DNA of 64,000 nucleotides. It comes from Acholoe squamosa (taxonomy: Eukaryota > Annelida > Polychaeta > Phyllodocida > Polynoidae). The DNA lies in assembly GCA_949317995.1 (NCBI GenBank), contig OX439036.1:29210354-29274353 (forward strand), given 5' to 3'. The notes under the pieces were generated by a model. It searched no databases. It was not told where the DNA came from and saw only the letters and a program-made list of their open reading frames with translations. The stretch's first letter is position 1. The number at the start of each line of letters is the position of its first letter. Shown one piece after another: positions 3,444 to 63,241 of this stretch. The position numbers and the translations under genes are program-made.

Positions 3444-4355
3444 GTTCACTAACCTACTGGAACTGAGTACTACCGTTATGCATACCATGTATACACGTTT
3501 TGACACCATATGCAGAGTTTATATGTATAGACGTTACAACATTTTGCATGTGTGCACTCCACAGGGCCACTGATACTCAAGGATAACAGGGCAGAGAAAA
3601 ATGACACTTGTCAGAGCATCACTGTAAAAGTGATATGGAAACCATGTCATGTGATAGTCCTTGCATTGCTTTGTGAGCCATTGTGAACATATATACATTG
3701 CATCTATAATCAATATTGTGGTACTTTAAGGGAGCATTTCTTCAACGTGTACTTGGTAGCAACATGAACACAGAAGAATTAAATTTGTCTCAATTCTAGA
3801 CACCCCTTGAGTACCACGATTGATGAGTGCAGGCTGTGAGTCTATGTCTGTCAACATGGTGGCAGCAGTCACAAACACAAACTGTCAATATTTAACATGC
3901 GTGCAGGTGCAGCCGAGGAGGGACGGGGGTTGAATGGGTGCGACACCTCGTCCTTGCAACCTCTGACCCATGCGACCCTAAACTATCCACTCTTGGAGGA
4001 TGTCGGTGGGGGATGTGCGTGTGTATGAGTTGCTAGAGAAGAGTGGGATGGGGGTGGGGTGCGACGACGCGACAAACAGCCTCCGACTTATTCACCTGTC
4101 GGCCTGTCGACAGTGGAGCCACCAGAGCAGGGAAAACAGTTCATGTACCCCTCTAGTCCATCTCATTAACCCTCTCTGCACAGCGGGTGCGTCCTCGCTA
4201 TGTGCGACGTCCTGTGGGTCTCCAGATAGGCCTACTCTATCTGGACAAGGTTACAGGAAGGTCATATCAGACAGCAGGTCACTAGGCCAGATGTATACAT
4301 ACATATGGACGCATGTGCAGGAGATAAGACATTCAAACAGCTAAAAAAAACAAAA

Positions 4356-47248: not shown

Positions 47249-47252
47249 CTAC
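47249..47252. repeat. Candidate target-site duplication, left copy (ctac)
   Basis: The four bases just outside the left LTR are ctac, and the four just outside the right LTR (63238-63241) are also ctac. Four-base duplications are usual for Ty3/gypsy integrases. The call depends on where the LTR ends are placed. Confidence 0.55.
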
Positions 47253-48603
47253 TGTCATACTTGTGATTGGCATGATCAAGTTGTCATATGAGAAATATCA
47301 TATGACTAGTGGTGTAAGGAGTAAATACATCAGGCTCATAATAAAATAATGTTATTTCCAGTTGTCACTGGTTTATTCAGCTTTAGGCAACATGTAAGAA
47401 ATATCAATCATACAGTAGTTAGTATGTAGGTAATTAGTACATACAGTAAACATACAGTAATTTATAAAGTACAATATTCAGTTCCACTCCACCTGTGAGG
47501 TATTAATAATACAGTGTCCAGCATACTTCTAGGTGGGTTCCCACACCTAGCTCCTGACCTGCTGCTTAGAGGAATAATGTAATAATGGATAACTTTACCC
47601 TCTGGTGGAAGTCTTGAAGAAGATAGCCTCTGGCCACTAATGGTAGGAAACCAATGCCTGTCTAGCATAGTTTCACCATAGTGCAGTGGTATAGCAGGTA
47701 GCAGGAGATGACTGGAGATGTTACCTCTAGAGCGGTTCTTGGTGATGTGTCTTCCTGGAGGTGCAGACAGGCTATTTGTAGCAAATCTTGGAAAAGCACC
47801 TCCAGACTGACTGGAGCCAGCAGCATCTGCCTAACTCTACAATTGTTTGAGGGGACCCTTTCAAGTGTCACAGGGGGACAAAGGACCCCCATGGACGCCG
47901 CTATGGCCCCCATTGTCTCGGTCGGTTCTGCATCTTTAGACCCTCATATCTCGGCCGTTTATGCTTGTATAACCGCCATTTTGGGCATGCGCAGAGCTGA
48001 ATGTGCCAAGATTATAATGCCCGCTGGATAGGCGCGTAACTCCCGCCGGTTTGTCTGTAGCTCACTCGGAGGTCGATTCAGTCTCCATGGCGTAACTTCC
48101 TTAATACTGGGAGTTCAGCCTTGATCTTGGGCTCATTCTGACCGTCTAATTATGGGCTTTCCATAGAATTTTTGATATTTGACCTAGGTTGCTCAGGAGC
48201 GACGCTAGAGCGACCGGAAGGTTATGGCGTCGTGCTTATGTAACCCATTGTTCAGTCCTTAGAGTGCTCAGACACTCATGACGGCGTCAGCGGTGCTCAG
48301 GCACCCGTGACGGCCGGTTGCATTCACTTACAAGTTATTAATTTGTGCATTGAACCATGAGGTCGCACACTGAGACCCTTATTCTTATTATATTGTGCAG
48401 TGAACCATTAGGTCGGACCTTTTGATGTCATAAACTTAGTCTAACTGACTGTGGCTGGTGTGCAGTGGGGCATGAACGCTCTTATGTAAAGTTTGACCCC
48501 TCTTATAGCTCTTAGAACCAACCTATGTATTAATTTCATAGATATTTCTTTGATTAATACAAAATATGTTACAATTTATGGAATAATAAAATGGTATATC
48601 ATA
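47253..48603 (-). repeat. 3' LTR (left copy)
   Basis: About 1,351 bp, matching 61888-63237 with one single-base indel (near 47340), two internal substitutions (about 47990 and 48200) and two mismatches close to the outer edge (47262, 47265). On the minus strand, TATAAA (47466-47461) would place the start of R near 47435. AATAAA (47377-47372) would place cleavage near 47355. This gives a long U3, an R of about 80 and a U5 of about 100 bases. These boundaries are inferred. Confidence 0.92.
47372..47377 (-). promoter_or_regulatory. Poly(A) signal of the element (AATAAA, minus strand)
   Basis: On the minus strand the 3' LTR contains AATAAA about 120 bases before its end and downstream of the predicted TATAAA box, the expected place for the retroelement polyadenylation signal. 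The identical site in the right LTR is 62006-62011. Confidence 0.5.
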
Positions 48604-48608
48604 GAATA

Positions 48609-48621
48609 CTCCCTCTCCCCC
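48609..48621 (-). other. Candidate polypurine tract
   Basis: On the minus strand the sequence just before the 3' LTR reads gggggagagggag, followed by a few bases (tattc) and the LTR start. A purine tract at this place primes plus-strand DNA synthesis in LTR elements. The short gap to the LTR edge is slightly unusual and leaves the exact LTR start uncertain by a few bases. Confidence 0.6.
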
Positions 48622-48957
48622 GAAAGAATGCGAAACTCCGTCATTTCGCCGAGGGAATGTACAATTTATACAATTTTTACCTTATTTTTGGAGTTATATA
48701 CTGTTTTGTAAGAGGATTTGAAGTAATGGGGAGTGCTTCAAATGCAATTTTTGTGGTAGAGCTTTGTCAGTATAAACAATTTTCTCCTGGGTATAAGTAC
48801 ATTTCCGAGTTTCTATATCTTACTATACCAGAGCTTATTTGCTTATGTAACATCAATTTTGGGTACAATTTTCCATTTTTATGTACAACATACAATTTGG
48901 CAAATAGTGTGCAATTTTGGCATTTAATATTCAATTTAGCGTGCAAATTGAACATAA

Positions 48958-49285
48958 ATGACAATTTCAGTGTGCAAATTTACAATTTCGCGTGTAATTG
49001 CGTTCAATTGACAATTTCAGTATGCAAATATATAATTTTTGCGTACATTTGGCAATTTAAGTGTGCAAATATATAATTTTCGCGTATATTTGGCAATTTT
49101 AGTGTGCAAATATATAATTTCGCGTGCATTTGGCAATTTTAGTATGCCAATGTATAATTTTCGCGTATATTTGGCAATTTTAGTGTGCAAATATATAATT
49201 TCGCGTACATTTGGCAATTTTAGTATGCAAATATATAATTTTGCGTTCAATTGATAGTTTCTGTATGTACATATATAATTTTGCG
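48958..49285. repeat. AT-rich tandem array, unit about 40 bp (81-bp dimer)
   Basis: Eight or so imperfect units of the form gtgcaaatatataattt-cgcg-tatttggcaatttta. Two alternating variants give an 81-bp higher-order period. It lies inside the element, between the antisense gene and the 3' LTR. The minus-strand frame of 113 codons through it repeats the unit and shows no sign of being a protein gene. Confidence 0.85.
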
Positions 49286-49406
49286 TACAGCTTGGATACA
49301 CATAGAAATGTTGATTTTCTAAAAATCTGACTTCAGTGTATGAATTGGGTACAGACATACAGTATAATGTGCAACATATAATTCAAATGTAAATTGGATA
49401 CAACTT
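49286..49406. other. Spacer between the two AT-rich arrays
   Basis: AT-rich non-coding sequence with partial relatives of both flanking repeat units (cgtacag.ttggataca, gtgcaacatataattc). Confidence 0.5.
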
Positions 49407-49625
49407 ACAATCTAGTGTGCAAACATACAATTTTAGTGTGCAAATTGGGTACGAGCGTACAATCTGGTGTGCAAACATACAATTTTGGTGTGCAAATTGG
49501 GTACGAGCGTACAATCTGGTGTGCAAATATACAATTTTAGTGTGCAAATTGGGTACGAGCGTACAATCTGGTGTGCAAACATACAATTTTGTGTGCAAAT
49601 TGGGTACAAACGTACAATCTAGATT
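49407..49625. repeat. Tandem array, unit about 52 bp, four copies
   Basis: The unit runs gtgtgcaaacatacaatttt, then a second gtgtgcaaattgggtacgag and cgtacaatctg. Four copies differ by few bases, so the array looks recently amplified. It is distinct from the 40-bp array but shares the gtgcaaa..acaattt core. Confidence 0.85.
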
Positions 49626-50383
49626 ACACTATTCAATTTATGGGATTTGAGACAAATTTTTCCGAGGGCCGGAAAAACAAAGTACTTCATATACAATAGG
49701 CTTGTTTGTCTCTGAGTTACTCATTGATTTTGCTATATGGGTGTATTAATTGGCAATTTCGGCAGTGGGCCGCTGCTTAATTGACTTTTCCCCTAGCCTT
49801 TTGAGTATGTGTCCCTGAAAGAGATTTATTTGGTGAGTATCTTAAGTAAACATGTTTTATGTCAACAATTTTCTCAACAAATTTTTTTTTTTTTTTTTTT
49901 TTTTTCATTCATTTTTCCAACAATTTTCTTGGATACCTAAAGTGTGTTACTTTAAGTAAACCTTGGCATAGTATACAAGTGCTAGTGGGTACAAAAACTG
50001 TCTTAGTTATCTACCTGCATTCATGTATATTAATGTTAGATTTGTACAATTTTACAATTTGTAATTTGCAATTTCGCAATTTTGCGCGTATATGCGCGCA
50101 TTAATCATTGATTTTTGTGAGAATACCATAGATTTTCATATTATACATCAACAAGTGGCTGTGTATATAATTTTTTTTTTTTTTTTCCTAATACTTTGAT
50201 AATTTCATTGACAGTGGAGGTGTGTCAGGAGTGAGATGTGAGTCTCCTCCCTGGTGTGCTCATGCAGTGGTGGCACTTGAGGTGCTAGGTGCCAGATTTT
50301 GGCATGTGTCTGTGGCAGTGCCTAGCTTGGTGTCAGTGGACAGTTCAGGGTGAGGGGGGGGGGGGGGGGTGTGTGTGTGTCCA
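49626..50383. other. Non-coding region upstream of the antisense gene
   Basis: Contains long T tracts (49879-49905 and 50169-50187), a cgcaattttgcgcgtatatgcgcgca stretch near 50070-50100, and a G run followed by (GT)n at 50355-50380 immediately upstream of the proposed promoter. No open frame of note was seen. Confidence 0.5.
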
Positions 50384-50419
50384 TTTAAGGAGTGTGTGGC
50401 TGGTATTGGAGCATCAGTT
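50384..50419 (+). promoter_or_regulatory. Candidate core promoter of the antisense gene
   Basis: A TATA-like box (catttaagg, TTTAAG at 50384-50389) lies about 30 bases before an initiator-like TCAGTT (50414-50419), whose A would be the first transcribed base (about 50416). This gives a 5' leader of about 32 bases to the ATG at 50448. Spacing is right for a TATA-initiator promoter, but both motifs are short and the assignment is inference. Confidence 0.4.
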
Positions 50420-50447
50420 CCTCTCTGGAAGTCACTGCTGTAGTACC

Positions 50448-50927
50448 ATGGCCCACCTACAAGCTCTCTTTGCTCTGCCTGTCCCCCAGGTGATGGAGGT
50501 GGGGAGTCCAGCTAGGGCCCTGGTTGAGTCTAACCAGACCATCCATTATGGGTACATAGTGAGTAACTACAAAGAGATCATAGAGCATGGTGATGTGATG
50601 GTCTGTAATTACTCCTGCCATTATTTCCTGGGCTCAGCCTTGCGTCGGGGGGCCACTGTGGCCCTTCTGTCTAGGGCCTTGGGCAGTATGGGTTTCTGGC
50701 CCATGGATTATAACCTAGGGCCGCGGGAGCGAGTGCTATGGGATTATTTGTTGGCGGCATCCCTCCTCGATCTTGCGGCATCCGGGGATCCATCCACGGC
50801 TGCCGAGTATGGACTGGGGATGCTGGAGGCCCGGCTCGCTGAGTGGGAGCAGGATCACGGCCATATGTATGGCTCGGACTCGGCCCCGGACTCTCCCATT
50901 GATGTTGAACCCGAGGATCTGTGGTAG
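50448..50927 (+). CDS. Antisense accessory gene, unknown 159-residue protein
   Basis: An intact intronless frame runs opposite to gag, pol and env, between env and the 3' LTR. I chose the ATG at 50448 because its context is taccATGG and it follows the candidate promoter by about 30 bases. The same frame is open further upstream (to 50289, with another ATG at 50304), but that part includes poly-G and GT repeats. The protein has a mixed N-terminal half with several Cys, His and Tyr residues (about 50-70), a helix-prone Leu/Ala/Glu-rich part (about 100-140) and an acidic Asp/Pro tail ending in EDLW. No signal peptide, membrane segment or known domain is visible. GC content and codon use look like a real gene and unlike the AT-rich flanks. 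Convergent with env: their stops are about 150 bases apart. A histone-type stem-loop follows the stop. It may be a captured host gene or a viral regulator; the function is unknown. Confidence 0.75.
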   Translation: MAHLQALFALPVPQVMEVGSPARALVESNQTIHYGYIVSNYKEIIEHGDVMVCNYSCHYFLGSALRRGATVALLSRALGSMGFWPMDYNLGPRERVLWDYLLAASLLDLAASGDPSTAAEYGLGMLEARLAEWEQDHGHMYGSDSAPDSPIDVEPEDLW

Positions 50928-50969
50928 GATCCCGACTGACTGAAACCTAGGGTGTAAAAACCCGCCATC

Positions 50970-51012
50970 CCAAAGGCCCTTTTCAGGGCCGGCAAATTGT
51001 CCGAAAAGTTCT
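50970..51012 (+). terminator. Histone-type mRNA 3' stem-loop and possible downstream element
   Basis: CCAAA is followed by GGCCCT-TTTC-AGGGCC (50975-50990), a perfect 6-bp stem with a 4-base loop. It matches the consensus of metazoan replication-dependent histone mRNAs (GGYYYTTYTCARRRCC) at every position. It lies 47 bases after the stop codon, the usual distance. About 12 bases after the stem comes the purine-rich ccgaaaag, where a U7-paired histone downstream element is expected. The 3' flank (ggcaaa) departs from the common ACCCA. On the other strand it is also a hairpin but lacks the consensus loop. Confidence 0.75.
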
Positions 51013-51076
51013 GAATACTGTCTCTGATGTGTTGTCTCCTGGTGGTGGACTGGGGGCAGCCTAGGCTGTGGGCAGT

Positions 51077-53701
51077 CTAGGCTGTTTCCACAGTCACCGG
51101 GGAGGGCTGGTGGTTTAGAAAATTAGCAATAGTCTGCATGTTTGACCTTGCGGTCTCCTCCTGTTGTTCGTCAATAATTATATCTGTTGTATTTTCCAGT
51201 GCTGTCATGGTCACCGGGCTGGTGCCACAATCATTCTGGAGAAGCATGGAGTAGTACAGTCCTTTGTTTTTAAGGGCTGGTATAGTACTGAACCTAGTGC
51301 GCCAAGGTAGGTGTATCACCTGAGGGAGGTGATAAGCAAATTCTCCTCTCTGTGTTGTTATAACTGCTGGTCCATTCCAGGTAAATATAGCCTTAGGTAG
51401 TGGGAAGGTTTTAACCACTATATCCTTATAGGTAGGGGCAGCTGCTGATTTAATCTCATCAAATTCATGTGGTATTGGCCTCAAGGGTAGCGCGAAGTTT
51501 GAGTCTCCACAATATATTTTAAAATATATTGTGGGGTTTGTGCGCTTGGCCACATTTTTCTTGCCACAGTGTGTCTGTGCAAATTTCTTAAGGTACTTCA
51601 TTATTCTGTAGGCTGAGTAGATGGTCAGGGTGAATAATATAGCAATTATCAGGGTGTGGGTTTCCTGAATTGTGAGGAAAGGGGTGTGGGTTTCCTCTGT
51701 AGGGGTTAGTTTGGTAGGATTCTTATCTGGGAGCAATTTGTGTAGGGGCAGCTCGGTGACTAGTCTGAATGCTTTGGCTGTAGGCAGGTAGGCTACAGTT
51801 CCTCCTAGTCGGTACAGTTTGAGTAGTATGTATACTATAAAAATGTGAGCTGATATCCCTAGGATGAGTGCTAAGCTTTGGAAGATTGGATGCTCTGTAA
51901 CTCGACGTAGGTATGATTCCTCGTAGCGCGTTTCCATTTCCTTATTAAGGTTGGAGGCATCTTTTAATACTGTTTTAGCAAAGGGCTCTAAATTTAGTTG
52001 AGTAATATCATCCATGATTGGATTTTCCTGTAGTTTTTCTAAGGTTCTAGAAAGGTTTACTACTGGGAAATTTGGAAGATTCTCTCTTTCATCTGGTTTG
52101 GTTTCAGAAATTTTGTTAAGTGCTGCCATGAATGGTAAATTAATTGTCTTGAGAATGTAATGAAATGATAAGGTTGAGTTACAGGGCAACCTTGTGTTTG
52201 GAAGAGAAAATTCTCCTACACTGATCGTGCACCCACAGGGTACACCTATGATTGAGTAGGACTGGGCCTTCCGAGTTTCAGACGTTTTACCATGGCAGTT
52301 GATAAAGTAATGGGGTTCATTAGTAGTGACCAGATACTCATCTTCAGAAATGGAAATAGCATGGGTGGTAGGTGCTTGCAGTGGTGAAACTGTAAACTTG
52401 CAATGTTCCTTAATCTGTTGAGCCTGGTTAGTAAAAATGGCTACAGGGCATGTAGGCCTGTGTTTATAGATTCTACCATTTACATCTCTGCATACCTTTA
52501 CTGTAGTACCTTCACATGCCTGCATGTCTGCTGAGTCCAATTCGATGAATAATGATTCGTCGTAAGATACTGCTAGAAACTCAGTTGTGGTTTGTAATTT
52601 GGTGACTCCTCTGGTGGGGGTCTCCTGTGTGTCTATAGGCATGGGTGATGTAATCATTTGGTACAGTTTGAAGGTAGAGGTGGTAGATTGAATTATAATG
52701 TCCAGATGAATATATATATGGTGAGCTGAGTAAGTGTATGAGGTCAGCTTCTGTGAATAATAGAAATCTAAGTCATTAATTGCGACTTGTGCTCCAGGGT
52801 GTGTAATCCTAAGTTTGTTATTAATGTCAATTAGGTATCTAGCAAGGTCTGAGGGTGGTACTATATCAGGGGTTAGGATTCCTGATGATAGCATCCTCAG
52901 GGCTGTATTTGTCCTTTGCAGTGATTGAACTGTATTCATTCTTGCTGCTATGATAATTAGTGCATCATTTAATACTTGCATTTTCTCCCTTTGAGTTTTC
53001 TCGTGCCTTGAATATGAGTCAAGTGACCTGGACATGTTAGAGGCCCACAGGTTGACGGTGTCACCTATGGTGTTGATTGTGCTGTCCAGTACCTTCTTAT
53101 CTTGGATGTATGCTTTAACAAACTTATCTTGTCTGTCTGTGATCTTTTCAATGAGATTAGCTGCTTCCTGGTCCTGTTTAGCAAATTTTCTTAGTATTTC
53201 ATCTATGTTCTTGAGCTGTCCCATTACTTGGTTTACATCTTCTACTGTGGCTAGACCTAGCACACCGCGAAACAGGGGTGCTAGAAAACCCAGTATGGCC
53301 TCTCTTTTGGCCTTGTCCAATGTGTTTATGGGGTTGGATAAGAACAATTTGATGGAGGCTAGTGTTTCATTTATCTCCTTGTCTGCAATTTCCAGCAAGG
53401 TGTCTAGCTCCTTAGCTTGTTGGATAATTTGGCCAGAGGTATGATCTTGTAGAGTAGGAGTGGTCAAATGGAGTATTCTATCCCTTATGGATCCTTGGGT
53501 AACGGGTGCCCGAGGTATCTTGTAGGGAATAGCTAACAACAGTGTTGTGGTTGTATGTCCATTGACCAATGGTTGAGGGCTAGGTTTGAATACTACTCCT
53601 ATGTTTTGTCTCACCACAGGTGTATAGCCTGCAGTAAGTGGTTTTATAGTATATAATAACAGCATAGTTAGCAGTATGGGTGAAACTCTCAGTCTCCCCA
53701 T
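51077..53701 (-). CDS. env: Env-like class I fusion glycoprotein (errantivirus/F type)
   Basis: An 874-residue open frame, start chosen at the ATG of 53701 (context accATGG); upstream codons lack an ATG. It begins with a hydrophobic signal peptide (about 7-24). A basic KAKR at about 130-133 could be a furin-type cleavage site. It is followed by a hydrophobic Gly/Leu/Ala stretch (about 135-151) and the ATVEDV motif, the layout of fusion peptides in gypsy-type Env and baculovirus F proteins. A heptad-rich coiled coil follows, then a cysteine-rich region at about 395-510. Several N-glycosylation sequons are present (NET, NMS, NLS, NST). One membrane span lies at about 608-628, a second hydrophobic segment at about 684-700, then a long tail of about 175 residues, which is more than usual. 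It is likely expressed from a spliced mRNA. No breaks were seen. The family call rests on layout and short motifs, not on a search. Confidence 0.82.
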   Translation of the reverse strand: MGRLRVSPILLTMLLLYTIKPLTAGYTPVVRQNIGVVFKPSPQPLVNGHTTTTLLLAIPYKIPRAPVTQGSIRDRILHLTTPTLQDHTSGQIIQQAKELDTLLEIADKEINETLASIKLFLSNPINTLDKAKREAILGFLAPLFRGVLGLATVEDVNQVMGQLKNIDEILRKFAKQDQEAANLIEKITDRQDKFVKAYIQDKKVLDSTINTIGDTVNLWASNMSRSLDSYSRHEKTQREKMQVLNDALIIIAARMNTVQSLQRTNTALRMLSSGILTPDIVPPSDLARYLIDINNKLRITHPGAQVAINDLDFYYSQKLTSYTYSAHHIYIHLDIIIQSTTSTFKLYQMITSPMPIDTQETPTRGVTKLQTTTEFLAVSYDESLFIELDSADMQACEGTTVKVCRDVNGRIYKHRPTCPVAIFTNQAQQIKEHCKFTVSPLQAPTTHAISISEDEYLVTTNEPHYFINCHGKTSETRKAQSYSIIGVPCGCTISVGEFSLPNTRLPCNSTLSFHYILKTINLPFMAALNKISETKPDERENLPNFPVVNLSRTLEKLQENPIMDDITQLNLEPFAKTVLKDASNLNKEMETRYEESYLRRVTEHPIFQSLALILGISAHIFIVYILLKLYRLGGTVAYLPTAKAFRLVTELPLHKLLPDKNPTKLTPTEETHTPFLTIQETHTLIIAILFTLTIYSAYRIMKYLKKFAQTHCGKKNVAKRTNPTIYFKIYCGDSNFALPLRPIPHEFDEIKSAAAPTYKDIVVKTFPLPKAIFTWNGPAVITTQRGEFAYHLPQVIHLPWRTRFSTIPALKNKGLYYSMLLQNDCGTSPVTMTALENTTDIIIDEQQEETARSNMQTIANFLNHQPSPVTVETA

Positions 53702-54526
53702 GGTGCTTGTGTAAAGCAAGTTTGCTGTTTAAAGTCTTGTCAAATTTGTAGTGATTTGGTGCTGGTAAAGTCTAAGTGTATGGTGTAACACTTTAAATGA
53801 AGTGGTTCAAACTGTACCTTTGCAAGATTGAGCTGTCTTGGCAATATGTCCGGTGAGTCTATAGAGGTTGACCAGTAAATGGTAAGGTCAGGTTGAAGGT
53901 GAAGTAGGTGTGTTCTTTATCCTAGTGCAGTCTCTCCTAATGGAGAAGTGGGCTGGCTAATTCCCAAGTGGGGTCCTGTAGACTTGTGTTCCAGACTGCA
54001 GCTGGATGAAGACTGATGGTGGGCTATGGTCCACAGTGCTTCTTATGTAGCCTACCCTACCCACATCCATTGTGGGCCTGGTATTGTTTCTCTGGAGTCA
54101 TGTACCTAATCTCCAGTGTCTGCAACTGAGGGGTTCTATTGTGTAATCTGTGTACTGGTAATTAGCTCCTCCTGTCATCCAGGACAGCCATTCATGACCG
54201 TCTAGACAGTTGTCTGAGTGTAGCTTATAGGGTCAATTGATCTCTATAGACTGCTGTGTTGGCATAGCGCGCTCTTTCATGTGGGGATTAGGCTTTAGAC
54301 ACTCCATTGTGTTACCCTTACTCTTCTTAGACTTCATGTCTGCTTTACTTGGGGGGTCCCAGTCTTTGACCCTTTCAGAGGCAATAACCTACTGATATAT
54401 TTACAAATTTGATTGGCTTTATATACATAGTAATTCATTATCAGTCACACATGTCTTATGTGTGGATGAAGAGAATTTGTAATACATTTTGAAAATCTTA
54501 TGTCTTTTGGTATCTCAATCTTGTTT
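53702..54526. other. Non-coding gap between pol and env
   Basis: 825 bases with no open frame of note on either strand, but inside the element. It presumably carries the env mRNA leader or splice acceptor. I could not pick a unique acceptor. Confidence 0.5.
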
Positions 54527-57500
54527 CTAATTTCTTGAAACTGCACCACACCTAGATGTCTTCCTTAGTATGTGGTGTGCAGGCCTAGGCTTGATAGGGC
54601 CTATGCCTGTGGTTTCTCTTGTAAGGGTGATATCATTTTTGTTCCTTACAATTTTGCTGTAGTATTTGGCCTCATGTGGAATAAGCCTGTGTGCAAATTC
54701 ATTATTTCTGACAGCCATAACCTTTTTCAGTCTGTCTATGTGCACTGGTCTGGCCACCAATAGATTGGTGTCCAGGTTTTTGAGTTTGGCACTTGTCAAA
54801 CTAGGTCTATCTACTACAACATATGGTCCCATAAAAAGGGGTTGAAGTTTCTTACACTCTGTGTTGGTCAGGATTCTTGGTATGTTTAGGTACACCATGT
54901 CGGTGACCTTGATTTCCTGTGGTGTAAGTTTCTTATCATATCTATCCTTCCTTTCCTTTTGTAGCTTGGCGACCCTTTCTATAGCTTTCCTCCTAGAGGT
55001 ATCTTGATTTGTTATCATGTTAGCTACATGGTCTGCTACTGTGGATATGTCTTCCTGTATTCCCAGCCCTAAGTCCATTGGGGTGGCTGGGTTTCTTCCA
55101 TGGAGTAGGAAGAAAGGGGTGAATCCTGTGGTTTGGGATTCAGTGTTGTTTAATGCAAAGGTTATGGGTTCAATAAATGAATCCCAATTGTTTTGGTGCT
55201 TTGAGCAGAATGCTCTGAGTGCTGTGCCTATGCTAGCATTGAATCTCTCTACAAGCCCATTTGATTGTGGCCTGTATGGTGAGGAGAATTTATGTTTGAT
55301 CTTGAGGTGTTTAGTTAACTTTGTGAACTTTGCACCTGTATAACATGTCCCATTGTCTGTTTGAAGAGTGGCTGGTGTTCCATGATGACAAATTATATTC
55401 TTGTAGAACTCTGCTGCTGTTGTCTCAGCTTTTAAGTCAGTAGTAGCCCAAGCTGTTGCATATCTGGTAGCATAATCTATGCAGACTTGTATATGTTTGT
55501 TTCCCCTGGCAGTTGTGGGAAGTGGTCCCACCGCGTCTAGGTTTAGGAACTTCATTGGTGAAGTCATGTACTCTCTCACTGTCATTGGTGTTTTGTGTGA
55601 GTGTACTTGCCTTTTTGCTGTGAGGCATGTGTGGCAGGTGGAAACATATTTTGTTGTGTCTGCTAGCATAGACTTCCAATATACCCTAGGTCGGAGTGCT
55701 GACAGCATCCTACTTGAACCAAGATGGCCGCCGGTAGGTGAGTCATGGAAATACTGTAGTGTACTTGTTACCCATTGCTGTGGTATAACAATTTGAAGTG
55801 GTACAGTATTGGTTTTTCTCCAATTTATGGGGCATATATGGACTAATGTACCATTTACCAAGGTGTATGTCTGGCCTTGGTTGATGATTCTATTTCCTTG
55901 TGCTTTTGGTGCAGGCAAGGTCCCATCCTCAAGATACTGTATGAGGGGCAATAGGTCCTTGTCTTTCCTTTGTTCCAAGCCAAGGTTTGTACCTGAGATG
56001 GATGTGTCGGGAATCTGATCCAGTAGTTGATTTATATCTAGCACATGTTGTTTTATTCTGTCTCTTTCTTTTTCTTTTTCATCGACTATTGGCCTATCTT
56101 GTGCCTTTTGTTGGGGTGTGTCACTCTTGTTTTGGTGTGTAGGCTCCTTTGGAGGGCCTATTTTCGCCTTAATGGGAGTGGCAACCTTTTTCTTTAAAGG
56201 CACAATTTGCTTTTTGTCATTCTTCTTTGTCTCAGAGTTCTTTGACTTAGTAGATGCAGTGTCTTTTGTGACATTTTTCCTGGCAGGTGGGGTTTTGGTA
56301 GGTTTGTTTCCTGTGACCTTTTTCTCATTTAGAATAGTTTGTGATTGTGTGGGGGGTTTTGGTGTGCCCTCCTGAATCATTTCTCTAGTCTTTGAGCGTG
56401 TGGTCATAGGACACAAATGGTTTGATGTTTCCTCTCCCTGCATAGGTTCAAAGAATCTGACTGATTTAGAAGTTACTTGAGTAATAGCATATATTGTGTC
56501 TTCTGGATCTTCATCATCTGAGTCAGGTGGGGTGAAGGGTGGCTCCTTAGGAGTTGCCTTCACTATCTGATTGAGTGATGAGAATTCAATAGGCTCGAAG
56601 TCATTATCTGGAAAGAGTTGTGAGTATTCTCTCTCACAGTGGCAAAACACATAGTGTGTAGATTGCTTCAAGATACCCCTAATGGGTGTCTCTGGCCTTT
56701 CAATGGTGTTGGGTGGATCATCCCTTTTGAATGGTACTTTCTTTGTTACTTTTGCAAACTTGGTTCTACTGGCTGCTCTAACTCTCCTTGGTGGGGGTGG
56801 AGGGTTAGTCATGGGTCCAGAGTCTGGGTATTCTCTTCTAGACATAGCATCTGGTGGTGTGTTATCATCACCTTTCACGTGTTGGATGGTGAATGAAAAT
56901 TGTTGTATGTCTAGAGCCCATCTGGCCCATCTATGTGTGAGTCCTGTATTGGTTAATAGTGGGATTAGGGCTGCATGGTCTGTGTATAATTGGAAGTGTC
57001 TGGTCTCTAGATAGTGTCTGAAGTGTAATACTCCATACACTACTCCCAGTAGTTCTCTCTCTGTGGTATTGTAATTTCTCTCATGTTTTGAGAGGGTTCT
57101 ACCTGCAAAGGCTACTGGTCTGAGCACTCCTTCATTATCTCTCTGTGAGAGTACAGCTCCTAAACTCACATTGGAAGCATCAGTTGCCAAACTGAACTCT
57201 TTCTCATAGTTTGGATATCTGAGAAGAGCATTGGTACAGAGGGCATGCTTTAATGTTTTGAAAGCATTATCTGCCTCTTCTGTCCAGACAAATGCTTTGA
57301 GATGTGTCTGTAGATCATATAATGGTCTAGCAATTTGGGCATAACCTTTGATAAACTTTTTGAAGTATTGGCATAGGCCTGTGAAGGATCTGACATTTTT
57401 GACTGATTTTGGTGTTGGGAAGGTTTTGATTGACTCCACCTTTGTGGGAGATGGTTGCAGTCCCATGGGTGTGACTCTCATTCCCAAGAAGTCTATTCTG

Positions 57501-59257
57501 TCTATGAAGTATTCACATTTTGATTTCTTCAGTTTGAGTTTACCAACTCTTAGGCTGTTGAACACGTCTTCCAGGTCATGGAAGTGTTGTTCGATTGATG
57601 GTGATAATACCAATATGTCATCTAGGTATGGTAGGGCACATTTGTATTTGAGTTTGTTCAGAATTAATGTGACTAGATGGCAGAATCCCGCCGGTGCCGT
57701 CGCTAAACCCATCGGCATCCTTTCATAGACATATTTTTTGTCATTTGCTATGAATGCGGTTTTATGCTGATCCTCCTGTCTTATAGGAATTTGAAAAAAT
57801 CCCTGTTGGGCATCTAGCTTACTGAATACTCTTGGTCTGAGTGACCCTATCATGTCTAGAGTGTCATCGGCCCGGGGTGTAGATAAGGCTTGATTTATCG
57901 TGTTCTGGTTCAAATAACGAAAATCTGTGACGAGCCGATGGCCTCCCGATGATTTTTGTACTAAAAAGGATCTGGAGGCCCAGGGGCCCTCGGCACATTC
58001 TCTCAGAATGCCCTGTTGTACTAGCCTTTCACACTCTTCCCCTATAGCGGCCTGTTTTTCTGGTGTTTGTCTATATGGTAGGAAATGACATGGTACTGCC
58101 TCAGGTTTTACATGTATTGAGTGTGTATACAGGTGTGTGGCACCAATGTCTCCATCTTTTCCTACAAATACATCATCATACTTGGTCAGCAGTGATTTTA
58201 ATCTATCATGCTGATCTTTGGATGTGAGCACAGATTTTGGTGGAACATTCTCTTCTAATTCTGGCTCGAGGTCATGTGCCTCACTATGTATAGCAGCTAT
58301 TTCAGAGAGTCTGATTGAGTTGGGTTCAGGGTCAGCATATGTGGACTCACAGTCTGAGTCTGTGTCACTGAATTGAGTTACATCCTCAGGCCGTATGGCT
58401 GAGATGGATTGATCAGTGTGTGGGGTAGTGTCTGACACCTGTTGAGGTTTTTCTAAATCAGATTCCTTGACTTCCTGAAATAGAGCTATGATGGCACCCT
58501 TTTTGATTTTATGTGGGCGCCTGCTGGTGTTGAGTAACACTAGGGGATGTTTGTTATTTTCCCTGGGGGTTACTGCTGCCCTTTGAACTAGATATGGGGC
58601 ATTGTTATTTCTTTGGAGGTTATCTACTACTCCAGTTTTGCCTTGCAGTGATTGAGTAGATGTGACCTTACCCAATACTGCAAGTTCAGAGAATGGAGGG
58701 ATGGTAAAATCCCTCACTGCCCTAATGGGTTTGAGAATTTGTTCAGGATCAACATTAAATTCAATTTGAGATTTTGTAGTGCTTAAGAAATCTGTGCCGA
58801 GAACAACGGGCTGTGTGAGGTTGGGAATTACAGCAAATTGGTATTGGAATCTGACACCTTGGATTCTAAAGTTCAGCATAGCTGAATGTCTAACATGACA
58901 CACCGATCCATCTGCCAAGTGGATGTTGATTTTAGATTTCCTCAGTTGGATATGGAATCTCTTTTGGAGATCCATGAGGAATGATTGTCTGACACAGGTG
59001 ATAGTAGCACCTGTATCAACCAAACATTGTACATCTGAAACATCATATAGATTTGCATTGATACAGCCATTTTGAAGAAGTACAATAGAAAGCTTGGTAC
59101 TCTCACCTGTATCCTTTGATGATGAATCTGGTGGGGTGATGTGTATCACTGATGGACGTCTCTGTCTGTTAGATGGTAGATTGGCACTAGCAATTGTCTC
59201 TGGTTGGATCTTTGTTAATCCTGATTGATTGTTTGTATTTGGGGTGTCACAGTGCAC
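54527..59257 (-). CDS. pol: Pol polyprotein: protease, reverse transcriptase, RNase H, integrase
   Basis: 1,576 codons without a stop. No ATG lies at the upstream end (the first codon listed here is GTG), and the frame stays open into the end of gag, so it is probably made as a Gag-Pol fusion by -1 frameshifting. Residues are numbered from 59257. Aspartic protease: DTGA at 81-84. Reverse transcriptase: about 390-600, with LDA at 481-483 and the catalytic YLDD at 544-547. RNase H: TDAS at 692-695, acidic residues near 733-735, YTD at 758-760 and the closing D near 803. A proline-, lysine- and acid-rich linker runs from about 810 to 1060. Integrase: zinc site H1171, H1178, C1208, C1211; catalytic D1241, D1301 and E1337 with a 35-residue last spacing; GPY at 1477-1479 in the C-terminal module. 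All catalytic residues are present. Confidence 0.97.
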   Translation of the reverse strand: MHCDTPNTNNQSGLTKIQPETIASANLPSNRQRRPSVIHITPPDSSSKDTGESTKLSIVLLQNGCINANLYDVSDVQCLVDTGATITCVRQSFLMDLQKRFHIQLRKSKINIHLADGSVCHVRHSAMLNFRIQGVRFQYQFAVIPNLTQPVVLGTDFLSTTKSQIEFNVDPEQILKPIRAVRDFTIPPFSELAVLGKVTSTQSLQGKTGVVDNLQRNNNAPYLVQRAAVTPRENNKHPLVLLNTSRRPHKIKKGAIIALFQEVKESDLEKPQQVSDTTPHTDQSISAIRPEDVTQFSDTDSDCESTYADPEPNSIRLSEIAAIHSEAHDLEPELEENVPPKSVLTSKDQHDRLKSLLTKYDDVFVGKDGDIGATHLYTHSIHVKPEAVPCHFLPYRQTPEKQAAIGEECERLVQQGILRECAEGPWASRSFLVQKSSGGHRLVTDFRYLNQNTINQALSTPRADDTLDMIGSLRPRVFSKLDAQQGFFQIPIRQEDQHKTAFIANDKKYVYERMPMGLATAPAGFCHLVTLILNKLKYKCALPYLDDILVLSPSIEQHFHDLEDVFNSLRVGKLKLKKSKCEYFIDRIDFLGMRVTPMGLQPSPTKVESIKTFPTPKSVKNVRSFTGLCQYFKKFIKGYAQIARPLYDLQTHLKAFVWTEEADNAFKTLKHALCTNALLRYPNYEKEFSLATDASNVSLGAVLSQRDNEGVLRPVAFAGRTLSKHERNYNTTERELLGVVYGVLHFRHYLETRHFQLYTDHAALIPLLTNTGLTHRWARWALDIQQFSFTIQHVKGDDNTPPDAMSRREYPDSGPMTNPPPPPRRVRAASRTKFAKVTKKVPFKRDDPPNTIERPETPIRGILKQSTHYVFCHCEREYSQLFPDNDFEPIEFSSLNQIVKATPKEPPFTPPDSDDEDPEDTIYAITQVTSKSVRFFEPMQGEETSNHLCPMTTRSKTREMIQEGTPKPPTQSQTILNEKKVTGNKPTKTPPARKNVTKDTASTKSKNSETKKNDKKQIVPLKKKVATPIKAKIGPPKEPTHQNKSDTPQQKAQDRPIVDEKEKERDRIKQHVLDINQLLDQIPDTSISGTNLGLEQRKDKDLLPLIQYLEDGTLPAPKAQGNRIINQGQTYTLVNGTLVHICPINWRKTNTVPLQIVIPQQWVTSTLQYFHDSPTGGHLGSSRMLSALRPRVYWKSMLADTTKYVSTCHTCLTAKRQVHSHKTPMTVREYMTSPMKFLNLDAVGPLPTTARGNKHIQVCIDYATRYATAWATTDLKAETTAAEFYKNIICHHGTPATLQTDNGTCYTGAKFTKLTKHLKIKHKFSSPYRPQSNGLVERFNASIGTALRAFCSKHQNNWDSFIEPITFALNNTESQTTGFTPFFLLHGRNPATPMDLGLGIQEDISTVADHVANMITNQDTSRRKAIERVAKLQKERKDRYDKKLTPQEIKVTDMVYLNIPRILTNTECKKLQPLFMGPYVVVDRPSLTSAKLKNLDTNLLVARPVHIDRLKKVMAVRNNEFAHRLIPHEAKYYSKIVRNKNDITLTRETTGIGPIKPRPAHHILRKTSRCGAVSRN

Positions 59258-59280
59258 TGGCCCATCGGCACTGTGACATC

Positions 59281-60918
59281 CTAGTTTTCCTGGTTCTGTG
59301 GGGTGGTTGAGATGCTTGCCACCAGGAGTTTGGAGATTTGATCCATCACATGAGGTGGTATTTGGGGGTTACTTTGTTGGTTCCCCTGGTAACCTCTTGT
59401 GTCAGGTTTGTAATCCTCCTGGCGTGGGTTGGAACCCTGGTTATATTGACCAGAGTTGCTGTATTGACCGGAGTTGTTGGATCTCTGGTTGTTGTAGGCG
59501 CCATTGTTGTTGTAGGATCCACTGTTGTAGTTCCTATGTGGACTCTGGCCCCTACTGTTGGATCCTTGACTATAGGATCCAGTGTTGTTTGAACCCTGGC
59601 TGTTGTTGTAGGATCCACTGTTGTTGTAGGATCCAGAGTTGTAGTTCCTATGTGGACTCTGGCTCCTACTGTTGGATCCTTGATTATTATAGGATCTGCC
59701 ATTACTTGGGGTTCTGTCTCTCCTATCACTGTATGAAGAGTTACCATTGTTGGAGTTGGAAGAGCTGTTGTCTTTCCTACTGTTGTGACCCCCCCGGTTG
59801 TTGTTGTTGCCCCCTCTACCTCTGCCTCTATTGGATTGGTAGTTGGGGTCATAGTTATTTCCTCTGTATCTACCGGTAGGGTCTCTTGATGCAACCTTAG
59901 CTTCCTGTTGCCTTACATGGGCACTAGACATTAGGTTAACATCTTCATCTGAACTAGTGCTGATTTCCTGGACCTTTTTCTTAGTAGGCTGTGGGTTGGT
60001 TTCTGCATCCCTTACCTTCCTAGATCTCTCTTGGGTCTCAACCTCTAGGGCTAGGTCTAGGGCTTGGTCAAAAGAGTCTATTTTCTTGTTCTCAAGAGCT
60101 ACAGAGATCCAGGGCCTCATGCCTTGGGTAAATGCCTTGCTTAGGGTTTCATCACTCTGGCGTTGGGCATTACACACTTTCCTGAGATGGCATGCATAGT
60201 CTAGAACAGGTTCATCTATCTTTTGTGCACGGAGTGCAGTCCTTGAGATTATATTGTCTCGAGTAGCAAAATACTCTTTTAATTTATTCACTACATTGGT
60301 CCATGTCAACATATCAGGTGTGGCACTCTCCCTGAAGGATTCAAACCAAGCTAGTGCTTGTCCTTCGAGGTACTTGGGTAAATATGTTACCATGGTGTCA
60401 CTGTCTGTCACTTTGTACTTATCCTTCAGATATTCTGGGAATTTGTGATCAATGAATAATGCTGTTGACATGAGTGGTGATGGGTGTGAAAAGGTTTTGG
60501 GTTTTGTTACCTCATGTATCCTGATCTTTCTGTCGTCCTGCTGTTTATTGTCTATGAGCTTGGTCATGTTGGACACCATGGAGATTATGATGTCATCTTT
60601 GGATCCAGAGGCAGATGGTGTGACAACAGGTGTGATGGCAGGTGTGGGAGGTTGTGGGGTCTGGGATGATACCATCTTCATGAGATCTGCTATCTGTTGT
60701 TGTTGTCTCTCTAGGGACTTCCGCTGATCTTCCATGGCCTTCTGTTGAGCATCTATTGCTGCATTCCTCTCTGCCAGTTGTTGGTTGAGGATCCTCTCCC
60801 TTTCCTCCTGCTGGGACTTGTTGGTCTCTAGGGCAGTAACTGCATCTTGGATGGCCTTCTCATAGGCCCTTATCTTCTCAGCTGTCTGATTAGGTTGGGG
60901 GCCTTCATCGGTGTCCAT
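59281..60918 (-). CDS. gag: Gag polyprotein without a zinc knuckle
   Basis: 545 residues from the first ATG (60918, context atcATGG). The frame stays open a further 128 codons upstream to 61302 without any ATG, giving a Ser/Thr/Pro-rich stretch that could be translated from a non-AUG start. Numbering from 61302, a coiled coil of Gln/Glu/Lys/Arg lies at about 140-210. A retrotransposon Gag core runs from about 270 to 425, including the typical YLEGQALAWF and later LDLALEVE. An Arg-Gly, Asn, Ser and Tyr-rich tail runs from about 480 to 640 with repeated SYNN and SPHRNYN blocks. No CCHC zinc knuckle is present, so the low-complexity tail presumably binds RNA instead. It ends at TAG 59283-59281, overlapped by the pol frame. 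Confidence 0.9.
   Translation of the reverse strand: MDTDEGPQPNQTAEKIRAYEKAIQDAVTALETNKSQQEERERILNQQLAERNAAIDAQQKAMEDQRKSLERQQQQIADLMKMVSSQTPQPPTPAITPVVTPSASGSKDDIIISMVSNMTKLIDNKQQDDRKIRIHEVTKPKTFSHPSPLMSTALFIDHKFPEYLKDKYKVTDSDTMVTYLPKYLEGQALAWFESFRESATPDMLTWTNVVNKLKEYFATRDNIISRTALRAQKIDEPVLDYACHLRKVCNAQRQSDETLSKAFTQGMRPWISVALENKKIDSFDQALDLALEVETQERSRKVRDAETNPQPTKKKVQEISTSSDEDVNLMSSAHVRQQEAKVASRDPTGRYRGNNYDPNYQSNRGRGRGGNNNNRGGHNSRKDNSSSNSNNGNSSYSDRRDRTPSNGRSYNNQGSNSRSQSPHRNYNSGSYNNSGSYNNSQGSNNTGSYSQGSNSRGQSPHRNYNSGSYNNNGAYNNQRSNNSGQYSNSGQYNQGSNPRQEDYKPDTRGYQGNQQSNPQIPPHVMDQISKLLVASISTTPQNQEN
59284..59290 (-). promoter_or_regulatory. Candidate -1 ribosomal frameshift site at the gag stop
   Basis: The last gag codons are CAG GAA AAC followed at once by TAG. 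The heptamer G-GAA-AAC resembles an X-XXY-YYZ slippery site with an imperfect first half. The pol frame is -1 relative to gag and is open through this point, reading on across the stop. The downstream bases (gtcacagtgccgatgggcca, then gtgcactgtgac) contain a cacagtgc/gcactgtg inverted repeat that could form a stimulatory hairpin. Confidence 0.5.
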
Positions 60919-61296
60919 GATGGAGGGTGTGGGGGAGGTGTCTCTGGAGGAGTGGCTGTCAAAGGCTGGAGCTGGGGTGGAGGATCTAGATGAGGGTGTG
61001 GATCCACCCCCTGAGGCAGATCCTTCTTCCCCTGAGGTAGATAGCGTGAGTTGGGCGTCCTGTAGAGATCCCTGGGAAATGTTGGATCCCTGAGAACTGG
61101 TTGTTCCCTGAGTAGACAGGGTGGGTGGTGTGGGGTCTACTGAGTGTGGGTCTGTTGTATTGGAGGCTGGTTTGCCTCCTGTGGGCCTCCTAGATCTTGG
61201 TGGGAGGGAGACCTCTTCAACAGGCCCCTGACTACGTAAGGTCTTTGTGTGTTGTTCTGCCAGCTTGACTGATAAGGCCTTGATGTGTGTGGTGGA
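60919..61296 (-). other. Leader segment with upstream gag-frame extension
   Basis: The gag frame continues without a stop through this stretch and would encode a Ser/Thr/Pro/Gly-rich peptide, but there is no in-frame ATG. It could be an N-terminal extension of Gag from a non-AUG codon or an untranslated leader that is open by chance. Confidence 0.4.
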
Positions 61297-61710
61297 CCTC
61301 ACTGACGTGTGGGAGACCTCACTGACGTGTGGGAGACCTCACTGACGTGTGGGAGACCTCACTGACGTGTGGGAGACCTCTCTGACGTGTGGGAGACCTC
61401 ACTGACGTGTGGGAGACCTCACTGACGTTTGGGAGACCTCACTGACGTTTGGGAGACCTCCCTGACGTTTTGGGAGACCTCACTGACGTTTTGGGAGACC
61501 TCACTGATATATTAGAGATCTTACTGTTGTGTGAGAGATCTCATTGATGTATGGGAGATCTCACTGATGTGTGGGAGATCTCATTGATGTGTGGGAGATC
61601 TCACTGATGTGTGGGAGATCTCATTGATGTGTGGGGGATCTCACTGGTATGTGGGAGATCTCACTGGTATGTGGGAGATCTCACTGGTATGTGGGAGATC
61701 TCACTGGTGA
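61297..61710. repeat. Leader tandem array, about 20 units of 20-21 bp
   Basis: Two sub-families lie side by side. Ten units are of the type ctcactgacgtgtgggagac (61297-61500), each with a TGACGT core, the last few changing to gacgttt. About ten more are of the type ctcactgatgtgtgggagat (61501-61710). The array sits in the element's 5' leader, between the primer-binding site and gag. In Drosophila gypsy, the Su(Hw) insulator made of repeated protein sites occupies this same place, so a regulatory role is plausible. Confidence 0.9.
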
Positions 61711-61887: not shown

Positions 61888-63237
61888 TGTCATACTAGTA
61901 ATTGGCATGATCAAGTTGTCATATGAGAAATATCATATGACTAGTGGTGTAAGGAGTAAATACATCAGGCTCATATAAAATAATGTTATTTCCAGTTGTC
62001 ACTGGTTTATTCAGCTTTAGGCAACATGTAAGAAATATCAATCATACAGTAGTTAGTATGTAGGTAATTAGTACATACAGTAAACATACAGTAATTTATA
62101 AAGTACAATATTCAGTTCCACTCCACCTGTGAGGTATTAATAATACAGTGTCCAGCATACTTCTAGGTGGGTTCCCACACCTAGCTCCTGACCTGCTGCT
62201 TAGAGGAATAATGTAATAATGGATAACTTTACCCTCTGGTGGAAGTCTTGAAGAAGATAGCCTCTGGCCACTAATGGTAGGAAACCAATGCCTGTCTAGC
62301 ATAGTTTCACCATAGTGCAGTGGTATAGCAGGTAGCAGGAGATGACTGGAGATGTTACCTCTAGAGCGGTTCTTGGTGATGTGTCTTCCTGGAGGTGCAG
62401 ACAGGCTATTTGTAGCAAATCTTGGAAAAGCACCTCCAGACTGACTGGAGCCAGCAGCATCTGCCTAACTCTACAATTGTTTGAGGGGACCCTTTCAAGT
62501 GTCACAGGGGGACAAAGGACCCCCATGGACGCCGCTATGGCCCCCATTGTCTCGGTCGGTTCTGCATCTTTAGACCCTCATATCTCGGCCGTTTATGCTT
62601 GTATAACCGCCATTTTGGGCATGCGCAGAGCTGAATGTGCCAAAATTATAATGCCCGCTGGATAGGCGCGTAACTCCCGCCGGTTTGTCTGTAGCTCACT
62701 CGGAGGTCGATTCAGTCTCCATGGCGTAACTTCCTTAATACTGGGAGTTCAGCCTTGATCTTGGGCTCATTCTGACCGTCTAATTATGGGCTTTCCATAG
62801 AATTTTTGATATTTGACCTAGGTCGCTCAGGAGCGACGCTAGAGCGACCGGAAGGTTATGGCGTCGTGCTTATGTAACCCATTGTTCAGTCCTTAGAGTG
62901 CTCAGACACTCATGACGGCGTCAGCGGTGCTCAGGCACCCGTGACGGCCGGTTGCATTCACTTACAAGTTATTAATTTGTGCATTGAACCATGAGGTCGC
63001 ACACTGAGACCCTTATTCTTATTATATTGTGCAGTGAACCATTAGGTCGGACCTTTTGATGTCATAAACTTAGTCTAACTGACTGTGGCTGGTGTGCAGT
63101 GGGGCATGAACGCTCTTATGTAAAGTTTGACCCCTCTTATAGCTCTTAGAACCAACCTATGTATTAATTTCATAGATATTTCTTTGATTAATACAAAATA
63201 TGTTACAATTTATGGAATAATAAAATGGTATATCATA
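61888..63237 (-). repeat. 5' LTR (right copy), promoter of the element
   Basis: About 1,350 bp, nearly identical to 47253-48603. Transcription should run leftward: TATAAA on the minus strand at 62100-62095, predicted start near 62066, AATAAA at 62011-62006. Upstream in U3 are imperfect direct repeats, including gtgctcagacactcatgacg with gtgctcaggcacccgtgacg (about 62898-62947) and gtgcattgaaccatgaggtc with gtgcagtgaaccattaggtc (about 62980-63049). These are candidate enhancer modules. Confidence 0.92.
62095..62100 (-). promoter_or_regulatory. TATA box of the retroelement promoter
   Basis: TATAAA on the minus strand, about 90 bases upstream of the LTR poly(A) signal and 210 from the LTR end, which gives a sensible U3-R-U5 layout. 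The same box in the left LTR is at 47461-47466. Confidence 0.5.
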
Positions 63238-63241
63238 CTAC
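63238..63241. repeat. Candidate target-site duplication, right copy (ctac)
   Basis: Matches the ctac at 47249-47252 outside the other LTR. Confidence 0.55.

Follow-up and report, generated by a model that had tools for sequence, protein, structure and literature searches.

An antisense gene with a putative histone-type 3' end in an env-bearing Ty3/gypsy-type element of Acholoe squamosa

Plant Ty3/gypsy elements of the Retand lineage (Grande, RIRE2 and Retand) carry antisense ORFs encoding a TRP28 domain, as described in the excerpted text of PMC11963269. Antisense accessory genes are also known near the 3' end of env-bearing retroelements, namely HBZ of HTLV-1 and APH-2 of HTLV-2, and in the portions of PMC10186651 considered here HBZ-type genes have 3' LTR promoters and inefficient polyadenylation. 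The 3' ends of replication-dependent histone mRNAs are processed by SLBP and U7 (PMC2781718, in excerpt). Among the matches listed from the open-licence literature, judged by titles and the first parts of abstracts, no paper reports a histone-type 3' end for a retroelement gene, and none besides that on Retand reports a similar antisense or accessory gene of gypsy- or errantivirus-like elements.

The locus described here lies in a 64,000-nucleotide stretch (the window, C2:29210354-29274353) of the 1.48-Gb assembly of Acholoe squamosa. It shares with the Retand elements the Ty3/gypsy affiliation, an additional ORF that runs antisense to gag-pol and follows the last sense gene on the side of the 3' LTR, tandem repeats in this part of the element and retention of the ORF in most recently active copies, as far as the excerpted PMC11963269 describes them. 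Unlike Retand, it contains an env-like gene, its antisense protein (P0004) gives no Pfam match and thus no TRP28 (PF04195), and the gene is flanked by promoter-like and histone-type 3' signals, none of which is mentioned for Retand in that excerpt. The likeness to HBZ and APH-2 is one of position and strand; whereas HBZ-type transcripts have an LTR promoter and polyadenylation, the present gene shows a TATA/initiator-like pair inside the element and a histone stem-loop. With histone mRNAs the gene has in common an uninterrupted frame, a short predicted 5' UTR, the stem GGCCCU/AGGGCC and the motif AAAAGTT (13 versus 12 nt after the stem), but it encodes a non-histone protein and resides in a mobile element, not in the histone cluster at C6:82.68-82.77 Mb. 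The window very probably holds a maintained accessory gene, antisense to the retroviral genes, which would be expressed from its own TATA/initiator promoter as a histone-type, non-polyadenylated mRNA.

The element and its antisense frame

The features of the element, which occupies the minus strand of the window, are as follows:

61888-63237, minus strand: 5' LTR, 99.63% identical to 47253-48603, with CTAC outside it at 63238-63241
59281-61338, minus strand: gag frame (stop to stop), Pfam Retrotrans_gag and Ty3_capsid
54527-59368, minus strand: pol frame, Pfam RVT_1, RT_RNaseH, Integrase_H2C2, rve and gag-asp_proteas
51077-53728, minus strand: env-like frame, 56-61% identical to three public proteins
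51004-51010, plus strand: AAAAGTT, like the histone downstream element (host core histones; kept in homologs)
50975-50990, plus strand: histone-type stem-loop GGCCCTTTTCAGGGCC (RF00032, consensus pattern, host histone stem)
50448-50927, plus strand: antisense gene, 159 codons plus stop (ORF, copy comparison, diverged homologs)
50413-50418, plus strand: initiator-like ATCAGT (ATCAGT in L038, L080, L091 and L085; ATCGGT in L084)
50383-50389, plus strand: TATA-like box ATTTAAG (at the aligned position TATAAAAG in L080/L091, TTTAAAAG in L085 and L084)
48926-49622, no strand: AT-rich tandem repeats (about 40/81 and 52 bp) in the spacer that separates the antisense gene from the 3' LTR
47253-48603, minus strand: 3' LTR (LTR pair alignment), with CTAC outside it at 47249-47252

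The LTR pair differs by four mismatches in 1351 aligned bases and is flanked by a 4-bp target duplication; this high identity, together with CTAC at both ends, indicates a young copy. The gag frame matches Retrotrans_gag (2.4e-05, 24.9 bits, cut-off 24.1) and Ty3_capsid (8.4e-07, 29.0 bits, slightly below the cut-off of 29.1), and the pol frame contains protease, RT, RNase H and integrase domains in the order of Metaviridae. The env-like protein has no Pfam match above cut-off and no relative in viral_contigs (82 pattern stretches), but at least three public relatives at 56-61% identity were present among the matches listed (7999 candidates scored). Of the relatives tested against Pfam, P0007 matches Baculo_F (PF12259, 6e-06) and P0008 has no match. 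The Baculo_F match of an env relative and the gag, RT and integrase matches identify a Ty3/gypsy-type element with env, as originally predicted; the env assignment is based on position and on P0007. LTRs, target duplication, gag, domain order and env all agree with Ty3/gypsy elements of the env-bearing kind. The copy number of the AT-rich tandem repeats varies among otherwise near-identical element copies. A 20-bp repeat, present 21 times at 61286-61706, lies between the 5' LTR and gag and reaches into the start of the gag frame. A scan of the window gave no RNA family at the gathering threshold and no tRNA.

The antisense frame, placed between env and the 3' LTR, is a single unbroken frame of 159 codons on the plus strand, opposite the minus-strand gag, pol and env, and starts in the Kozak context ACCATGG; both points had been noted in the original prediction. 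Its GC content (0.57) was said to exceed that of AT-rich flanks, which holds for the upstream side (0.32 over 48604-50213) but not for the immediate neighbours, which are GC-rich as well (0.56 at 50214-50447 and 0.54 at 50928-51076). An upstream in-frame start, giving a 207-codon frame, was rejected and the downstream ATG chosen, since a G tract lying between the two starts differs in length from copy to copy; the lengths of the open frames also vary among the matches of the protein search of the host genome. ORF length is weak evidence, because 139 of 5000 first-order Markov sequences modelled on 50214-51076 contained an equally long ORF on either strand; the frame is taken as a gene because of its conservation.

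No domain had been recognised in the product, and P0004 indeed has neither a Pfam family above cut-off nor a histone family match, nor a credible match among PDB sequences. In a set of 5.8 billion proteins, searched at E up to 10 by a method that detects only proteins with common 5-residue words, no relative was found with the single sequence (856 candidates) or, among the matches listed, with a 10-row alignment (7996 candidates). Ten antisense sequences compared with Pfam at E up to 1 gave only Rpn9_C (0.08; two of ten). A 22-residue match in viral_contigs (L001), which runs against the direction of the phage-like genes around it, was dropped as chance. In the searches made, the protein is therefore an orphan by sequence. 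AlphaFold2 reached a mean pLDDT of 42.9 with nine close rows and of 51.3 (pTM 0.41) with ten more diverse rows, the latter model being all helical; the protein is possibly mostly helical, and the predicted model was too poor for a fold search. The C-terminal motif EPxxLW is kept in all ten aligned sequences, and residues 143-149 vary in length and sequence.

Conservation of the antisense frame

A protein search of the host genome, in which the best 150 of 1673 first-look candidates were scored, yielded 150 matches that all cover the whole antisense frame without a stop. This set is biased, as ranking was by protein score, and a fairer sample of 40 copies was obtained at the DNA level, with the final 624 bases of env as the query (best 40 of 1091 candidates). 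All 40 are identical over the query, and the antisense frame is open in 37 and frameshifted in three, an outcome in favour of a gene on the test by stops and frameshifts in sister copies that had been set for it. Variants present in at least two of these copies comprise 19 silent and 14 replacement changes, against an expected silent share of 28.9% (p=5e-4), while the same test in the five other frames gave p values of 0.067 or more. Single-copy variants (12 silent, 30 replacement) match the expectation without selection and differ from the shared ones (Fisher p=0.018). Most of the shared variants should have passed through an active element. Across all 68 fetched copies, 65 are open, with silent to replacement ratios of 21:15 for shared and 12:30 for single variants. 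The same contrast is seen in env (51077-52000, 40 copies), with 9:1 for shared and 12:17 for single variants.

Diverged homologs were reached by a genome search with RF00032 alone, the histone stem-loop family, at E up to 10 (best 75 of 291945 candidates scored). This search gave at least 71 matches, at least 42 of them above cut-off; the window copy and the core histones were not among the matches listed. At the same E threshold all 14 prokaryote control genomes had matches too, none above cut-off. Stretches around 19 of the 71 matches were fetched. Upstream of the stem-loop, four contain histone H1 genes (L072, L075, L082, L083) and five contain P0004 homologs, with tblastn identities of 65% (L080), 51% (L085), 48% (L084), 48% (L081) and 47% (L073). 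In the remaining ten neither was found; among them, L089 comprises only 301 bases and L087-L090 are weak, at under 26 bits. Because the protein played no part in this search, the link of the gene to a histone 3' end is more than a coincidence in a single element. The stem-loops of the five homolog loci are no separate evidence of conservation, as they selected these loci; the ORF homology was unselected.

Other ORFs were found next to such stem-loops. Non-histone ORFs precede a histone stem-loop in L074 (268-723, minus strand; 152 aa with an acidic tail) and L078 (895-1218, plus strand), and L076 and L079, which are 85-92% alike, have non-histone ORFs or repeats at this position. The adjoining ORFs of L074, L078, L076 and L086 match no Pfam family above cut-off, and the flanks fetched for L074, L078 and L073 gave no gag, pol or env match. 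Of the 71 RF00032 matches, 34 have the same score of 34.3 bits; 30 of these are no more than about 325 kb away from the end of a contig, and the other four are at high coordinates on C10 and C11.

The homologs in L080, L085 and L084 are open at 49-66% identity, while those in L081 and L073 are broken; L091, which holds a twentieth RF00032 match (C3:35398), contains a near-copy of the L080 homolog. Pairwise Nei-Gojobori comparison of the window with L080, L085 and L084 gave dN of 0.21, 0.36 and 0.41, dS of 1.0, 2.0 and 2.1, and dN/dS of 0.21, 0.18 and 0.19, values that are rough for the distant pairs because dS of 1-2 is near saturation. The low dN/dS anticipated for related elements is thus borne out. 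Among the six frames, the proposed one alone contains no stop in any of the three homologs, with pS exceeding pN at p values of 4e-13, 6e-14 and 9e-13, respectively. The mirrored minus frame shows a weaker silent excess (p 1e-5 to 1e-4), yet has 11-14 stops, and codon tests ruled out minus-strand frames across the ORF as coding. The antisense frame is a genuine gene under purifying selection. The homolog sample covers few diverged lineages, and the family size is a lower bound.

The 3' end of env lies beside the antisense gene in L080, L091, L085, L084 and L081. Since diverged homologs keep this neighbour, the association of gene and element predates about 50% protein divergence. L073 and L093 (C4:17376500-17379600) contain a decayed homolog and a stem-loop, and the sequence fetched there matches neither gag nor pol nor env. 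L080 and L091 (C3:31000-38400) are open homologs that point in opposite directions, with 3 kb between them, close to an ACCCTA array of telomere-like kind; both have an env tail, truncated in L091. The antisense gene may have spread by subtelomeric duplication.

The history of the antisense gene appears to be mosaic. In the same sister elements, env dS is 0.15 over 96 codons (L091) against 1.0 for the antisense gene, and 0.25 over 477 codons (L094, adjoining L084) against 2.1, so that silent divergence at 50448-50927 is about 7 to 9 times that at 51077-53728. Between L080 and the window, upstream non-coding sequence at 50089-50222 is 87% identical and the gene stretch 50287-51127 only 77%. Six of the young copies show no difference in env over 624 bases, yet their antisense genes are only 93-95% identical to that of the window. 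The antisense gene, whose divergence greatly exceeds that of env within one and the same element, thus appears to have a longer history than the sequences around it. This is most simply explained by exchange between lineages in the course of reverse transcription; alternatively, the antisense gene may have changed faster.

Histone-type 3' end and promoter-like signals

A compact set of signals around the ORF had been predicted and is present, consisting of ATTTAAG, ATCAGT, a histone-type stem-loop and AAAAGTT. The stem-loop begins 47 nt past the antisense stop and has the 16 nt, 6-bp stem and 4-nt loop of GGYYYTTHTHARRRCC-like elements; its consensus pattern has one exact match in the 64 kb and none in 100 shuffles. 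RF00032 aligns to it over the full length of the model, and the score of 23.5 bits (E 1.2e-4 for 201 bases) falls short of the curated gathering score of 34 bits. Among the homologs, L073 (39.8) and L080 (34.3) exceed this score, and L081 (33.6), L084 (33.1) and L085 (32.4) fall short of it. The host core histone cluster was located by a PF00125 search, and one 4.9-kb repeat of it was taken as the reference (L070), which also includes a 5S rRNA gene (3794-3912, minus strand). Host H2A, H2B, H3 and H4 end in GGCCCT, four loop bases and AGGGCC, followed by AAAAGTT 12 nt on. The element has the same 6-bp stem. The core histone loops are CCTA, CTAC, TTAC and CTAC, so that the consensus pattern used for the element finds no match there; host H1 loops include TCTC and TTTC. 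Searched with RF00032 at E up to 0.1, the reference repeat gave only H4 (23.1 bits) and H2B (19.6). Since both lie below 34 bits, this cut-off fails to separate true cases in this host, and the 3' end of the element scores as well by RF00032 as the host core histones do.

The AAAAGTT of the element, at 13 nt past the stem, lies, by sequence, within the spacing of about 12-15 nt typical of the downstream element to which U7 binds, close to the 12 nt of the host. Counted by reference columns, 36 of the 40 copies selected by env have the 16-nt core without any change; one of these 36 (L045) has an extra loop base. An alignment of 3' UTRs from the window, L038, L080, L091, L085, L084, L081 and L073 shows an identical stem with the loops TTTC, TTTT and TGTA, and AAAAGTT is kept in all of these homologs except L073.

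Upstream of the ATG, the TATA region reads TATAAAAGG in L080 and L091, TTTAAAAGG in L085 and L084, and ATTTAAGG in the window and L038; the window version is degenerate and the weakest. The initiator-like ATCAGT follows about 30 nt downstream of the TATA-like box; transcription would then begin at about 50416, and the 5' UTR would be about 32 nt long. TATAAAA or TATAAATA precedes each of the four core histone genes of the host; no TATA box is evident in front of the two H1 genes considered. An internal promoter rather than the LTR had been suggested to drive the gene, and the conserved TATA-like box and initiator-like site are sequence evidence for it; they favour an internal start over one in the 3' LTR.

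Origin, expression and significance

HBZ had been cited as a parallel and proves a poor model of expression, as HBZ-type transcripts start from the 3' LTR and are polyadenylated in the excerpted account of PMC10186651. A transcript of that kind would here start at an antisense promoter within the 3' LTR, be spliced at the acceptor-like sequence at about 50213 and be polyadenylated further downstream, and the stem-loop would be incidental. A poly-T tract followed by cattgacag/tgg does lie upstream of the gene, ATTGACAGTGGAGGT is also found upstream in L080 and L085, and exogenous retroviruses use antisense transcription from the 3' LTR, according to the same excerpt. It is nevertheless very unlikely, given a conserved TATA-like and initiator-like pair about 30-65 nt before the ATG and a stem, spacing and AAAAGTT that match the host histone genes; the text of PMC10186651 nowhere uses the terms 'histone stem' or 'internal promoter'. 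An additional start in the LTR, with splicing to the acceptor-like sequence, may nevertheless occur. That the frame is open by chance within GC-rich sequence, for which the long ORFs of the Markov sequences speak, is refuted by the comparison of diverged lineages, where dN/dS is about 0.2 and this frame alone stays free of stops over about 27-41% nucleotide divergence, leaving it a negligible probability.

The gene had further been suggested to be of captured host origin. A captured gene would be expected to arrive with its own promoter and a histone-type 3' end, and the decayed L073 homolog has no recognisable env, pol or gag in its locus or in about 1.75 kb downstream. The suggestion has lost ground and is unlikely, however, as no homolog in Pfam, PDB or the protein database and no histone family match came out of the searches made, and as four of the five diverged homolog loci, as well as the near-copy L091, retain the env 3' end by the gene. 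Purifying selection and the conserved promoter-like and 3'-end signals support the reading preferred here, that of an antisense accessory gene maintained by the element.

Transcription of this accessory gene would run antisense to gag-pol-env from the TATA/initiator promoter and would be ended by the host machinery for replication-dependent histone mRNAs (SLBP and U7 snRNP), yielding a short, intronless, non-polyadenylated mRNA. In histone mRNAs, SLBP and U7 snRNP bring about a cut a few nucleotides past the stem, no poly(A) tail is added and expression is linked to S phase. By analogy, the mRNA of the element would be made and translated mainly in S phase, and this timing would coincide with the making of new DNA copies and with chromatin assembly. 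Transcription, U7/SLBP processing and S-phase timing are the inferred parts of this mechanism. The opposite orientation allows a complete promoter and 3'-end signal to be carried without cutting of the genomic RNA, which is spared because the signals act only when read on the other strand; placed in sense, the pair would both initiate transcription and cut that RNA. The element probably uses the histone mRNA pathway for an S-phase-timed antisense message, encoded in a swappable cassette whose alleles are much older than the adjoining env.

Antisense retroelement genes were already known, and those in the excerpted PMC10186651 rely on promoters in the LTR and on poly(A) signals. A search handle is provided by histone stem-loops that lie apart from histone genes, which gave access to the antisense family in the host genome without the use of its sequence. 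If true, the proposed mechanism would constitute a new route by which a retroelement obtains a separate, cell-cycle-timed mRNA while its genomic RNA remains undamaged, and the conserved histone-type 3' end would explain why the gene must be antisense.
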